Assembly (NCBI GenBank): GCA_001829315.1
Contig: MIAY01000001.1
Coordinates: forward strand, 448,927 to 512,926
Source: Spirochaetes bacterium GWE1_32_154
GTDB lineage: Bacteria > Spirochaetota > GWE2-31-10
Direction of reading: 5' to 3'
Length of the DNA: 64,000 nucleotides
Shown here: in pieces, positions 854-43,631 of the stretch
Position numbering within the stretch: the first letter of the stretch is position 1
Layout of the letters: each line of letters begins with the position of its first letter
The notes under the pieces: model-generated
What the model was told of the DNA's origin: nothing
What the model saw: the letters and a program-made list of their open reading frames with translations, nothing else
Database searches by the model: none
Translations under genes and position numbers: made by a program

Positions 854-1666
854 TTATTTGTCAGAAATCTGTTTTTTTGTCATTAGTATGATATATGGAA
901 CAAAACAAACCAGACTCATAATCCATATAACAATACTATCAATTATTTCAAATTTGATGTTTGCACATATTGGTTTAATAATAAGATATCCTATTAAACA
1001 GAGAAATAACAAGGACGATTGAAAATATATTCCAATTATTGATGAATATCCGAATTTATTTTTTTTTAATAATAAAACACCGGCAAGAAACCAGATTATG
1101 CAAATAAAGATATCTGCAAAACTTACAGCTAAATCGGGTAGTGATACTGTTTTTATCCCGATAAAATTATTTATTATTACAGAAGAAGCTTTTGTAATAA
1201 ATAAAAGACCTAAAATGATGATGATAATACTATAGATTTTATTTGAAAAATGTAATGCAAATTTTTGTTTAACAGCAGTGTGATCTATAGCTTTGAAAAT
1301 TGATACATATGCAACGATGCAGGTTACCAGTATTATTATATTGATTATTTTATTTACAAAAATATGTATTGAAATTGAATAGACTATTTGATTATACATA
1401 ATAAAAAGCATCACCCCCGATAAACACAACTGCCATTGTTGTATTTTTCTAACAGATAAAATAAACACTATCGCAAAAACAGGTATGCCTATAATTAGAT
1501 TTACAATATCATTTGCGAGAAAAGCATTTTTTAAAACTAAAGTCGGATAAATTATATTTGATATAAGTATGTTAAGAATAGAATTAGCAAAAAATAATAC
1601 CATTGCAATAATGGATATAAAATATGCATTTTTTTCTCTTGATTTAATTAGTATCGAATTTTCCAT
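854..1666 (-). CDS. Hypothetical polytopic membrane protein (about 8 TM)
   Basis: 270 residues starting MENSILIKS. This start has GGAG 8 bases upstream. An in-frame codon at 1723 would extend it by 19 residues into the end of the upstream gene but lacks a better ribosome site. About eight hydrophobic segments span the protein, with short charged loops and no recognisable catalytic motif. It follows the J-domain gene by 22 bases on the same strand, so it is probably the last gene of the cheD transcription unit. Family not recognised; no function proposed. Confidence 0.6.
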   Translation of the reverse strand: MENSILIKSREKNAYFISIIAMVLFFANSILNILISNIIYPTLVLKNAFLANDIVNLIIGIPVFAIVFILSVRKIQQWQLCLSGVMLFIMYNQIVYSISIHIFVNKIINIIILVTCIVAYVSIFKAIDHTAVKQKFALHFSNKIYSIIIIILGLLFITKASSVIINNFIGIKTVSLPDLAVSFADIFICIIWFLAGVLLLKKNKFGYSSIIGIYFQSSLLFLCLIGYLIIKPICANIKFEIIDSIVIWIMSLVCFVPYIILMTKKQISDK

Positions 1667-39156: not shown

Positions 39157-40130
39157 TCACCCCAGTTTATCCAACACTACTTCTTTACTATCAGCAAAAA
39201 CAAATTCATCCAGTGCATCATCCAGGTTAGTAACATCTTCACATTTATTTATAATCTCAATATCTCCACTATTCATCTGAAATTTTCTGCTCATCTGACG
39301 ACATAATGTTTCTTTTTTATCTTCAATCTTACCCTCAGCCCTACCATCATCAAATGCGGTCTTTATCATTGCAGTTGCATCCCAGTAATTCATTAAACTT
39401 CTTTCATACTCCATCATCTGCTTCTCATTATAATTAGCTTTCTCTGCTTTACTTAAAGCATCCATAAAAACCGGTTCATTAAGAATTTCAGGAATAGTGT
39501 CAAAATCTTCAAGGTGTTTGAGGAAATAAAGCCATTTATCAAAATGAGTTGTAAGTTCTGACTCTGTTTTTTTGAACTTTGGCATTTCTATAAATATGTA
39601 ATTTAACTTATCATAGAATCTCTGACAATACTGATCTTTTAGTTCTACATAACTTATATGATCTGTTTTCTTTCTATTCACGCTATGAAACTCAAAATCA
39701 AGGATTGCTATACAGAAAACAGGTTTTAAGTTAAAATCCCAACCGCCTTTATCAGCCATGTTTCTAATTGGGAATGTAGTGTAGTATATTGTTCTGTCTT
39801 TGAAATAGTTAATTTTCGCTTTTTGCATTTTAACAATGAATTTATCACCATTTTGAGAAGTACAGAATATGTCAAATATTGCCTTTCTGTCATTGATGTG
39901 ATCCGGTAATTGTTCGTTATTATTGAGTGTAAGTTCGAATATGGTATACTTTTCCGGCAGTAGTTCGTTTAAGAAATCTTTTAACAGTTCTTTACACCCC
40001 TCTTCACCAAATATTTTTTTAAAACCGAAATCTGTATATGGATTAATGTATTTCGCGTATTCATTGTGTTATCCTCTGTTTCATTATATCCGATATGGTT
40101 TTTTGTGTCAAAGTTATTGTCTTTTTCCAT
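39157..40130 (-). pseudogene. Frameshifted PD-(D/E)XK nuclease family (Rpn/PDDEXK_2 transposase-like) gene
   Basis: Conceptual translation of the minus strand gives the family start YAKYINPYTDFGFKKIFGEE, then DFLNELLPE, RKAIFDIFC and KMQKAKINYFKDRTIYY, ending at 39157. The frame holding all this has no usable start codon. Two ATGs with good ribosome sites (40130 after GGAGG, 40064 after GAGG) are in a different frame, so one base appears to be missing next to 40059-40064. The ExQ catalytic motif reads KMQ (Lys for Glu at 39829-39831). Frameshift plus lost catalytic Glu imply decay. The intact 223-residue C-terminal frame from 39828 could still be translated. A sequencing error in the short A run cannot be excluded. 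Confidence 0.7.
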
Positions 40131-40248
40131 AGTTGCCTCCATATATATTAAAGGGAGAAACGTGAAATAACCGCGTGTTATTTACAATTTATTTTATTTC
40201 TTACTACGTTATATCAAGGATTATTAATTGCAAAGATGCGATGGTATG

Positions 40249-40277
40249 TTGACAATACAAGCAATCCACTTTATACT
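40249..40277 (+). promoter_or_regulatory. Near-consensus sigma70 promoter for the adh-kinase-macroglobulin unit
   Basis: TTGACA at 40249-40254 and TATACT at 40272-40277, 17 bases apart: the best promoter match in the window. Transcription would begin near 40284, two bases before the inverted-repeat element, giving a leader of about 170 bases ahead of the alcohol dehydrogenase gene. Confidence 0.8.
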
Positions 40278-40285
40278 ATACTAAC

Positions 40286-40405
40286 GAGGCTCTTGCAAAA
40301 ATAATGAGTACATTCTTTTTGCGTCCGCTCTATGCGATATTATCGCATTATAGGAAGCCTCATGCAAAAATTCGAAATAAAAAAAAGTATTTTTGCATGA
40401 GGCTC
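40286..40405. repeat. 120-bp inverted-repeat element (MITE-like or leader hairpin)
   Basis: The ends are near-perfect inverted copies: 40286-40303 (GAGGCTCTTGCAAAAATA) and 40388-40405, differing at two or three positions. A second left-type copy, 40356-40371, pairs perfectly over 16 bp with 40389-40404 around a 17-base loop. A further 7-bp hairpin (ATGCGAT-ATT-ATCGCAT, 40332-40348) lies between. No open frame is inside. The rest of the intergenic stretch 40131-40456 holds only the promoter at 40249-40277 and AT-rich sequence. Ends of this type resemble termini of IS elements, but no transposase or clear target duplication is seen. Confidence 0.8.
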
Positions 40406-40456
40406 TATCGAAAAAGTAATTAAAGTCATTTCAAGTCAACATAAAGAAGGTCGCAA

Positions 40457-41626
40457 ATGGAAAACAAAGATTATATTTCTTCTATCCGTAAATTTATAGC
40501 ACCTGAATTTGTTTTTGGAGTAAATTCAACCTTATTTCTAGGACGGTATTGTAAAAGTCTTGATCTTAATAAAGTGCTTATAGTAACTGATAACACATTG
40601 AAAAATACAAAAAATATGAATGCTGTTATCCAGTCATTAATATCTGAATCAATTCAATTTGAAGTGTTTTCAGACATAACTCCTAATCCGAAAGATATTG
40701 AAGTAATGAAGGGGGCAGCATTTTTTATCAATACAAAATGTGATTCAATCGTTGCCTATGGCGGGGGAAGTGTTATTGATGCGGCGAAAGGAATTGGAAT
40801 TGTTTCTACCAATAATCAGGAAATTGTAACATTTGAAGGTGTTGATAAAATAGAATTACCGATGCCGCCATTTATTTGTATACCGACAACGGCAGGGAGT
40901 TCTGCAGATGTATCACAGTTTTGTATCATTAATAAGGTGTCTGAAAAAGTTAAAATAGCAATAATAAGTAAATCATTAGTACCTGATGTTTCGTTAATCG
41001 ATCCTGTTAATCTTATTTCCATGCCGGCATTTTTAACAGCATGCACAGGTATTGATGCTTTAGTTCATGCTTTTGAAGCGTATGTTTCAACCGGTTCTTC
41101 GTATGTAACCGATGTTCATGCGTTAACGGCGGTAAAACTGATTACAGAAAATCTGATTGATTCAATAACAAACCCGGATGATATTGAAAGACGGTCATTA
41201 CTCATGATGGGGAGTTTACAAGCAGGACTTGCATTTTCTAATGCAAGTTTAGGATGTGTTCATGCATTAGCTCATAGTCTGGGCGGGTATTTTGACTTAC
41301 CACACGGTGAATGTAATGCACTTCTTTTAGAAGCAGTTGTTGATTATAATTTTTCATCTGCTTCAAAACGCTACAGCAAATTAGCCGAAACCATAGGTCT
41401 GGATGTTATTAAAAAAAGTGATGAATATACCAAAAAAATACTGCTTGAATTTCTTGCTGATTTCAGAAATAAAGCAGGTGTACGAGGAACATTAAAAGAA
41501 CGTGGTGTTAAAGATTCTGATATTCCGGTATTATCGTCAAAAGCAATACACGACCCGTGTAATGCAACAAACCCGAGGATTCCAACGATTTCTGATATAG
41601 AAAATCTATACAGGAGGTCTTTGTAA
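40457..41626 (+). CDS. Iron-containing (type III) alcohol dehydrogenase
   Basis: 389 residues. NAD-binding segment YGGGSVIDAAKGIGIV and PTTAGSSADVSQF, then metal ligands in ACTGIDALVHAFEAY, GCVHALAHSLGGYFDLPHGECNALLL, as in Fe-ADH/butanol dehydrogenases. Typically reduces aldehydes to alcohols with NAD(P)H in fermentation. AGAAGG precedes the ATG. An AGGAGG ribosome site for the next gene lies inside its last codons, so expression with the kinase is coupled. Confidence 0.94.
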   Translation: MENKDYISSIRKFIAPEFVFGVNSTLFLGRYCKSLDLNKVLIVTDNTLKNTKNMNAVIQSLISESIQFEVFSDITPNPKDIEVMKGAAFFINTKCDSIVAYGGGSVIDAAKGIGIVSTNNQEIVTFEGVDKIELPMPPFICIPTTAGSSADVSQFCIINKVSEKVKIAIISKSLVPDVSLIDPVNLISMPAFLTACTGIDALVHAFEAYVSTGSSYVTDVHALTAVKLITENLIDSITNPDDIERRSLLMMGSLQAGLAFSNASLGCVHALAHSLGGYFDLPHGECNALLLEAVVDYNFSSASKRYSKLAETIGLDVIKKSDEYTKKILLEFLADFRNKAGVRGTLKERGVKDSDIPVLSSKAIHDPCNATNPRIPTISDIENLYRRSL

Positions 41627-41627
41627 A

Positions 41628-43631
41628 ATGGATTCTCAACAAGAAAGAAATGATCTGAGAGATAGAATCGTCGGATTGGGGTCTGTTCAGGGGCGAAAAA
41701 CATATTATCCTGAATTAAAGAAAAAACTACAGGAATTAGAACGGTTTAAAACCTTAATCGACGCATCGGGCGAAATGATTCTGCTTGTTGAATTACCCGC
41801 CGGAGAAATACGGGATTGCAATAAAATAGTCTATGAAAAGTTGGGCAATACAAAACAGGAAGTTACTTCATTAAAAATTGAAGAAATTTTATTCTGTCCC
41901 GATAAAAATAATTGTATAGAATGCCTGAAAGATGATCGTACCTTAAAAAGATGTAATATACATTCGTCAACTCAAAAGATAATACCGGTTGAACTTAATA
42001 TTAATGTTGTTCAATTTGAATCAACTGATTTTATGGTTATTGTAGCAACTGATATAACAAAAAGACTGGAATATGAAAATGAAATAATAAGTAGTGAACA
42101 TAAATTTCATGCGGTATTTGATAATTTTTTTCAACTGACAGGCATATTAACACCACAAGGTATTCTAATTGATGTTAATCAGACTGCATTGTCATTAGTT
42201 GGTGTAACGAAAGAAGAAGTTATCGGTAAATATCTTTGGGATTGTATCTGGTTTAATCATTCAGAAAATGAAATTGTAAAATTAAAAGACGGAATTAAAA
42301 AAGCTCTTCAAGGTGAATTAGTACGTTTTACAACAACACATAAAACAGTTTCAGGCGAAATAAGGTATATTGATTTTTCTATAAAGCCGGTTGAAAATTC
42401 ATTTCATGAGATAATATATTTAATCCCGGAAGGTCGTGACACGACAGAGAATCGAGTTATGTCCATGGAACTTGAGAAAACCAAAAAACTCCTTGATACA
42501 ATTTTAGAATCTATGGCATCAGGAATAATCACTCTTGATAAAGACAATATAATATTACATATTAATACATTCGCAAAAACAATTTTACAACTTCAGCAGG
42601 AATATATAATCGGGAGTAATTTCTTTGATGTTCTGGATGATAATTTATTTGCTAAGGTAAAACGCATGATTAAAGAACTTAATAATGATGCATTGTCAAA
42701 TTCATTAATCATACCTGTTCATTCAACTGAAATTACAAAATTTTTGGAATTTACAGTATATCATTTAAAACGGTATGATGGTAATGGCGTTGTTATTCGA
42801 ATTGATAATGTTACCGAGCGTGTCAAGTTTACCGAGCTCATTATTCAGTCAGAGAAAATGATGACTGTTGGTGGTCTGGCAGCAGGTATGGCACATGAAA
42901 TTAATAATCCGTTAAATATAATTCATGGAAGTATTCAAAATACAAACAGAAGATTATCCCTCGATATACCTGATAACGTTGCTGAGGCTAATCGTCTTGG
43001 TTTAGATCTTGGGAAAGTAAGAGAATACCTGGAAAATAGAAAAATATTCTACTATATAAATGGTGCTCAGGAAGCTGTAGTGCGTGCGTCAAGAATAATA
43101 AGTGATATGCTGCTTTTCAGCAGAAAAAGTGAAAATAAAAAATATCTATGCAATGTTAATGAGGTCATTGAAAAATCAATTGAAATTTTAAATAGTGATT
43201 TTAAATATAAAGAAATAATGAAAAAATATACTGTTTTTATTAATTTTGATTATTCTAAACCGATACAAGCTATGATTTGTTATAATGAAATTGAACAGGT
43301 ATTGATAAATCTGTTAAAAAATGGTGTTGAGGCATTTGAAGGTAAAGAAAAACAAAACGATCCTAATCAGGTTGAAATTACAACACAATATTCAGATGAT
43401 GGTCATTTTGTAGAAATCTCAATCTGTGATAATGGTGTGGGCATTCCCAATGCTAATAGAAATAAGATATTTGAACCATTTTATACCACTAAATCCATTG
43501 GTAAAGGAACAGGGTTGGGACTTTCAATTGTCTATTATATTATTAAAGACAGACACGACGGGCACTTGTCGGTTAATTCAATAGAAGGAATAAAAACAGA
43601 ATTTATTATAAAACTACCGGTTAAATCATAA
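41628..43631 (+). CDS. Soluble PAS-domain sensor histidine kinase
   Basis: 667 residues with no membrane segment. An N-terminal coiled coil (20-45), three PAS-type domains (about 40-140, 155-270, 285-390), a phosphoacceptor with His423 (GMAHEINNPLNII) and a complete ATPase domain (LINLLKNGVEAF, CDNGVGIP, TGLGLSIVYY). The first PAS holds several Cys residues (CPDKNNCIECLKDDRTLKRC, about 85-104), which could bind a metal or heme or sense redox. No response regulator adjoins. It lies between the alcohol dehydrogenase (one-base gap) and the macroglobulin gene. Confidence 0.93.
   Translation: MDSQQERNDLRDRIVGLGSVQGRKTYYPELKKKLQELERFKTLIDASGEMILLVELPAGEIRDCNKIVYEKLGNTKQEVTSLKIEEILFCPDKNNCIECLKDDRTLKRCNIHSSTQKIIPVELNINVVQFESTDFMVIVATDITKRLEYENEIISSEHKFHAVFDNFFQLTGILTPQGILIDVNQTALSLVGVTKEEVIGKYLWDCIWFNHSENEIVKLKDGIKKALQGELVRFTTTHKTVSGEIRYIDFSIKPVENSFHEIIYLIPEGRDTTENRVMSMELEKTKKLLDTILESMASGIITLDKDNIILHINTFAKTILQLQQEYIIGSNFFDVLDDNLFAKVKRMIKELNNDALSNSLIIPVHSTEITKFLEFTVYHLKRYDGNGVVIRIDNVTERVKFTELIIQSEKMMTVGGLAAGMAHEINNPLNIIHGSIQNTNRRLSLDIPDNVAEANRLGLDLGKVREYLENRKIFYYINGAQEAVVRASRIISDMLLFSRKSENKKYLCNVNEVIEKSIEILNSDFKYKEIMKKYTVFINFDYSKPIQAMICYNEIEQVLINLLKNGVEAFEGKEKQNDPNQVEITTQYSDDGHFVEISICDNGVGIPNANRNKIFEPFYTTKSIGKGTGLGLSIVYYIIKDRHDGHLSVNSIEGIKTEFIIKLPVKS

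Follow-up and report, generated by a model that had tools for sequence, protein, structure and literature searches.

The DNA upstream of an ErcA-like gene in Spirochaetes bacterium GWE1_32_154 contains three short arms, A, B, and C, two of which can pair with the third. We examined this locus within a stretch of 64,000 nucleotides (the window). Do the arms act as an RNA switch for the downstream gene, or are they parts of a mobile repeat? The original prediction was that A and B compete for C, as in attenuators and riboswitches, and its alternative was that a miniature element derived from an insertion sequence (IS) had inserted at the start site. The alternative is what the present results show, whereas the regulatory reading was not supported. 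The features of the region are as follows.

40249 to 40277, plus strand: promoter-like site of the sigma-70 type, TTGACA-17-TATACT, located immediately before the element and not within it (consensus match only, 11 of 12 positions)
40282 to 40285, no strand: left 4-bp target-site duplication, TAAC (agrees with the right copy at three of four positions)
40286 to 40405, plus strand: 120-bp element, almost certainly a copy of a miniature inverted-repeat transposable element (MITE) with IS1182-type termini (covariance model score of 133.6 bits, target duplication, shared termini)
40286 to 40303, plus strand: arm A, the left terminal inverted repeat (repeat search, genome pattern count, termini of plasmid elements)
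40295 to 40322, plus strand: left hairpin of the GCAAAAAT..TTTTTGC type with an AGTA tip (fold, copy comparison)
40333 to 40349, plus strand: central hairpin ATGCGAT-ATT-ATCGCAT, for which two paired states dominate among copies (sequence, fold, copies)
40356 to 40371, plus strand: arm B, an internal near-repeat of A and the left side of the B:C hairpin (repeats, fold, copies)
40388 to 40405, plus strand: arm C, the right terminal inverted repeat and the right side of the B:C hairpin
40406 to 40409, no strand: right 4-bp target-site duplication, TATC
40457 to 41626, plus strand: gene for an ErcA-like regulator of the iron-alcohol-dehydrogenase type, a neighbor and not part of the element (NF041833, 560.9 bits; cut-off 550)
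41628 to 43631, plus strand: gene for a PAS-containing sensor histidine kinase, a neighbor (profile matches)

The arms lie exactly where they were predicted. The B:C stem is paired at 16 of 16 positions, and the repeat search found A:C paired at 16 of 18, with two mismatches where two or three had been claimed. A resembles B because both match C. In the whole window, the arm sequence had three matches with up to three mismatches (1.35 expected), and 11 of 100 shuffled sequences also reached three. The arm count alone is therefore unremarkable; the match of the whole element takes the observation out of chance. The covariance model did not detect a second full copy in the window.

Copies of the whole element are dispersed throughout the genome. 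A DNA search of this genome yielded at least 83 matches, with pieces and reverse readings counted, and a covariance model built from 32 copies matched all of the 150 places scored, 148 of them over more than 90 bp and the others over 49 and 63 bp. Since only part of the candidates was scored (40 of 357 in the DNA search and the best 150 of 7273 first-look candidates with the model), these copy numbers are lower bounds. The left-terminus pattern, allowing three mismatches, matched the genome 456 times and its reversed control five times. An ErcA-like gene, the only gene for which association was assessed, was present at one of 61 element loci, namely, that of the window. The leader had been proposed to be tied to the adh gene; scattered elements without this link, the result specified in advance as speaking against the proposal, were found at the other 60 loci. 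The 68 readings of the element (118–199 bp; two overlap, in L143) contain no transposase gene. They are located in tandem gaps (38), divergent gaps (22), convergent gaps (5), or at an edge (3); four are inside a mechanically called open reading frame (ORF) and 15 partly overlap one.

The related genome G001 contained 47 termini with up to two mismatches, while each of 58 other genomes contained eight or fewer, near background. In 15 of 20 stretches of G001, paired termini enclosed a core that differs from the present one; these elements scored at most 25.1 bits with the core covariance model, and four of the 15 had perfect 4-bp duplications. The element was not found in plasmids or phages by blastn, nor was one 24-letter element pattern found in viral contigs.

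Insertion left a clear trace. Perfect 4-bp target duplications flanked 32 of 43 full-form copies, which were the best matches of the genome DNA and terminus searches rather than a random sample, and five more agreed at three of four positions; shuffled flanks gave a mean of 1.7 and a maximum of 7. The 43 copies came from 44 full forms, one of two overlapping L011 readings having been dropped. The window copy (TAAC/TATC) is one of the five imperfect cases. Perfect duplications of 5–8 bp were absent from the 43 copies, and a small excess was also observed at 3 bp (5 versus 1.1). IS1272 has the same IS1182 family assignment; as described in the excerpted text of PMC5678879, it replaces stem-loop targets without duplication, whereas the present element has 4-bp duplications. 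Hairpin targets of this kind were rejected because the insertion sites were no more palindromic than shuffled sequences (longest inverted repeat of 3.69 versus 3.93 bp, 32 sites).

We then consider the parent of this family. Two of five IS1182-like plasmid elements share MITE-type termini and perfect 4-bp duplications: L155 (GAGCCTCTTGCAAAA and GAGCTTCTTGCAAAA, with ATGA on both sides) and L157 (GAGGCTCTTGCAGAA and GAGGCTCTTGCGAAA, with TGGT on both sides). L156 has similar termini and no clear duplication, and L158 and L159 have no such termini. L155 and L157 are IS1182-family elements of the ISUnCu17 type and, like the MITE, have GAGSCTCTTGCAAAA-like termini flanked by 4-bp target duplications. 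However, they are approximately 1.4–1.5 kb in length and carry a transposase gene; the MITE shares their ends only. Our literature search returned nothing on ISUnCu17.

In the genome of the window, the PF05598 (DUF772) profile matched one place, L153, where the terminus GAGCCTCTTGCAAAAAT (L153:1091–1107) is followed, approximately 290 bp downstream, by a piece of a transposase with DUF772. This piece is open over 95 amino acids and scored 34.5 bits (cut-off 23.1); the surrounding stretch is otherwise full of stops, and the relic shows one terminus only. An open 50-amino-acid piece between the terminus and the DUF772 piece had no family match. Compared with plasmids, the 95-amino-acid piece matched 11 records at 28–45% identity, eight of which, those at 39–45%, are named IS1182. 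It scored far under the NCBIfam cut-offs for IS1182 (17.3 of 270 bits) and IS5_4 (15.3 of 140 bits). With the L155 protein as the query, the relic was the only match in its genome and G001 gave none; no relative of the transposase piece was found in viral contigs. The link to IS1182 rests on the termini, the duplication length, and the L153 relic jointly. Beyond the IS1182-like piece, L153 seems, at approximately 1655–2400, to hold fragments of a further insertion sequence, which by eye resembles IS21.

An intact partner transposase is usual for a MITE, but is not required. The genome of the window yielded only the broken piece, and, therefore, present mobility is unproved; the assembly is in 43 contigs and could lack an intact gene. 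Searches with PF13359 and PF13586 gave no match in this genome or G001, and PF13701 gave none in G000–G003, the first of which is the genome of the window. Two candidates were rejected. A PF01609 gene, searched for in the genome of the window only, encodes a transposase of the IS982 type, for which one terminus-like match was found, but no paired termini. A PF05598 fragment in G001 (L154) scored 73.5 bits with the IS1182 model, but has no such termini nearby. Inspection by eye of five G001 stretches with unpaired termini revealed no transposase among the listed ORFs.

We conclude that positions 40286–40405 are almost certainly a non-autonomous MITE of the IS1182 type that has A and C as terminal inverted repeats. 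Its most likely origin is insertion in trans by a transposase of the IS1182 family, with a 4-bp target duplication, between an Rpn-like gene on the minus strand and the ercA-like gene. B is a near-repeat of A within the element, and its pairing with C gives a 50-bp hairpin.

The near-consensus promoter that had been predicted ahead of the arms is present as a promoter-like site. The gap at 40130–40456, which was selected post hoc, contains one site matching at least 11 of 12 positions against 0.015 expected, and 3 of 200 random sequences, which were Markov-1 samples and not exact shuffles, reached this number. Seven such sites occur in the whole window (4.5 expected), and four sites of at least 9 of 12 occur in 39900–40700 (4.6 expected). 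If this promoter is used, the ercA-like mRNA would carry the element, folded into three local hairpins, as its 5′ leader, and the effect of the element on this mRNA would be at most generic.

The genes downstream of the element encode the ErcA-like protein, the PAS histidine kinase, and a bacterial alpha-2-macroglobulin, in this order. The title of a reference in PMC12997753 connects ErcA with the regulation of ethanol utilization in Pseudomonas aeruginosa. The ErcA-like protein had matches in 14 of 41 genomes, including its own; those in the other genomes did not exceed 38% identity, and no empty insertion site was available for comparison. L078 and L079, two named ErcA relatives with 52% identity, lacked paired element termini. 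Upstream, the Rpn-type PD-(D/E)XK gene (PF12784; 39157–39828, minus strand) was listed as an ORF without the start of the domain (profile positions 73–229), and, thus, the gene may be broken near its start. A promoter-like site matching at 12 of 12 positions lies at 40111–40083 on the same strand as this gene.

A MITE may also act as a generic 5′ leader whose hairpins alter the stability or processing of the mRNAs of genes behind it, as is reported for the Correia elements of Neisseria. We regard this as possible, but rather unlikely. In 32 copies of 118–120 bp (excluding 12 longer full forms and 64 solo-marked hairpin readings, many of which read a full copy in reverse), 93.6% of cells in the three local hairpins were paired versus 89.0% in shuffled data, and 61 cells were changed on both sides versus 24.4; none of the 500 shuffles reached either value. 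The prevalence of tandem and divergent gaps among the element loci is also consistent with a leader function. However, two measures that resist the effects of relatedness did not exceed the shuffles (7 versus 6.8 double-change pairs, reached by 328 of 500 shuffles, and 12 versus 13.4 further pair types), indicating that covariation events are few. Furthermore, the central hairpin is mostly in one of two linked states, with perfect pairing in 36 and 19 of the 68 readings, and tandem-gap copies showed no clear strand preference (24 on the same strand and 14 on the opposite strand). Hairpin-templated repair could produce such paired changes without selection.

The Correia repeat enclosed elements of Neisseria offer a known comparison. 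According to the excerpted text of PMC2649163, they are short mobile repeats present at more than 100 per genome that can precede genes, as the MITE does, and can bind RNase III and affect their neighbors. Regulatory effects are reported for Correia elements in that text, whereas such effects of the MITE would be hypothetical.

A stronger version of this idea is that the family is maintained as a folded module of RNA or single strand, in which approximately 150 three-hairpin cassettes, bearing compensatory changes and, on one strand, RGTA-type tips, serve as portable leaders or processing sites, with structure selected beyond the need for terminal repeats. We consider this improbable. Tips of the form G[RGTA]C occurred on the element strand in 36 of 68 readings (50 tips in all), the other strand had three tips, and 32 readings had none. 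Hairpins tipped with G[AG]GTAC, such as that at 40295–40322 of the window, were noted as a recurrent form on one strand, and forms of 138 bp and longer seem to carry extra ones.

The proposal of a locus-specific leader, in which alternative A:C and B:C stems control ercA in the manner of an attenuator or riboswitch, is very hard to sustain. The promoter-like site just upstream, the perfect B:C stem, and the nearly perfect A:C stem suit it. In addition, when the leader is cut before C (40286–40380), the start of A is predicted to pair with the start of B (−27.4 kcal/mol), and, thus, pairing may change during RNA growth. At one column, A is the better partner of C (paired in 27 of 32 copies, compared with 15 of 32 for B), which implies that C is not kept for B alone. 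However, the best computed fold of the window copy is three local hairpins at −42.1 kcal/mol versus −35.4 kcal/mol with A:C forced, so that B:C is favored by 6.7 kcal/mol in silico. A:C was paired at 88.0% over the 32 copies versus 87.9% in shuffled data, and no measure exceeded the shuffles. B:C was paired at 94.1%, and 1000 shuffles had a mean of 92.4% and a maximum of 93.6%. At another, variable column, C and B formed C-G in 19 copies, T-A in 10, and T-G in one, and were unpaired in two, while A was unpaired in 11. A conserved A/B switch over C was not seen. As had been predicted, no T run, i.e., no intrinsic terminator, follows B:C; a terminator scan of 39900–40700 returned only 40160–40176. 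The two Rfam matches scored 19 and 17.7 bits against gathering thresholds of 100 and 60. We rejected the attenuator or riboswitch because of the dispersal of the element over approximately 150 places, the lack of a gene link, the absence of A:C covariation, and the lack of an Rfam match at gathering level.

An equally remote reading, in which a RAYT-type enzyme moves a family of REP-like palindromes whose basic unit is the 50-bp B:C hairpin, would fit the eight 50-bp hairpins of this type found alone (picked by eye), but not the sharp 4-bp duplications of the full forms, which are also perfect in three of the eight solos, or the termini that match DDE-type IS1182 elements. A deletion between A and B, which are direct repeats, could generate such solo hairpins; when B is taken as the left side, six of the eight start with G, like A.

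Other structures were noted in or beside copies. Many longer MITE copies contain a structured module, CAGGTTGCATGCCCGAGCAG..CGACCAGG, whose inner stem varies in sequence and is mostly paired. It was observed at 24 places in the genome of the window (L100 and L102–L124) and at L101 in G018, another family of the phylum; at L119, L121, and L101, it appeared by eye to be outside MITEs. Four carrier loci (L032, L036, L051, and L052) gave no Rfam match for the module at an E-value of 0.5. At L051, a cobalamin riboswitch (1146–1340, minus strand; 60.3 bits, gathering 31.5) abuts a 181-bp MITE copy (1338–1518).

The closest known case to the IS1182-type MITE described herein is MITEPye1 of Paracoccus yeei. 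As presented in excerpts of PMC11578231, MITEPye1 is 159 bp in length with 18-bp IS1182-like termini and 4-bp direct repeats, and, similar to the window MITE, is short, intergenic, without an ORF, and strongly folded in prediction. However, MITEPye1 copies are 96–100% identical and number 1–3 per chromosome, whereas the present copies are 118–199 bp, more divergent, and found at approximately 150 places. Moreover, the window MITE differs in having an internal near-repeat of its terminus and in that no intact IS1182 was found in the genome. Our literature search returned nothing that linked a MITE with a spirochete or Treponema.

The present results dispose of a misleading regulatory clue: of the two competing arms, one is a transposon end and the other a near-repeat of it inside the element. 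The nested forms illustrate how a terminus that is copied internally can resemble a leader with competing stems. The element is a mobile repeat of an ordinary kind rather than a dedicated regulator of the ErcA-like gene, and an effect on ercA, if any, would be one common to the element in general. It belongs to a new IS1182-linked MITE family in this spirochete, the copy number of which is far above that given for MITEPye1 in the excerpted report (PMC11578231).
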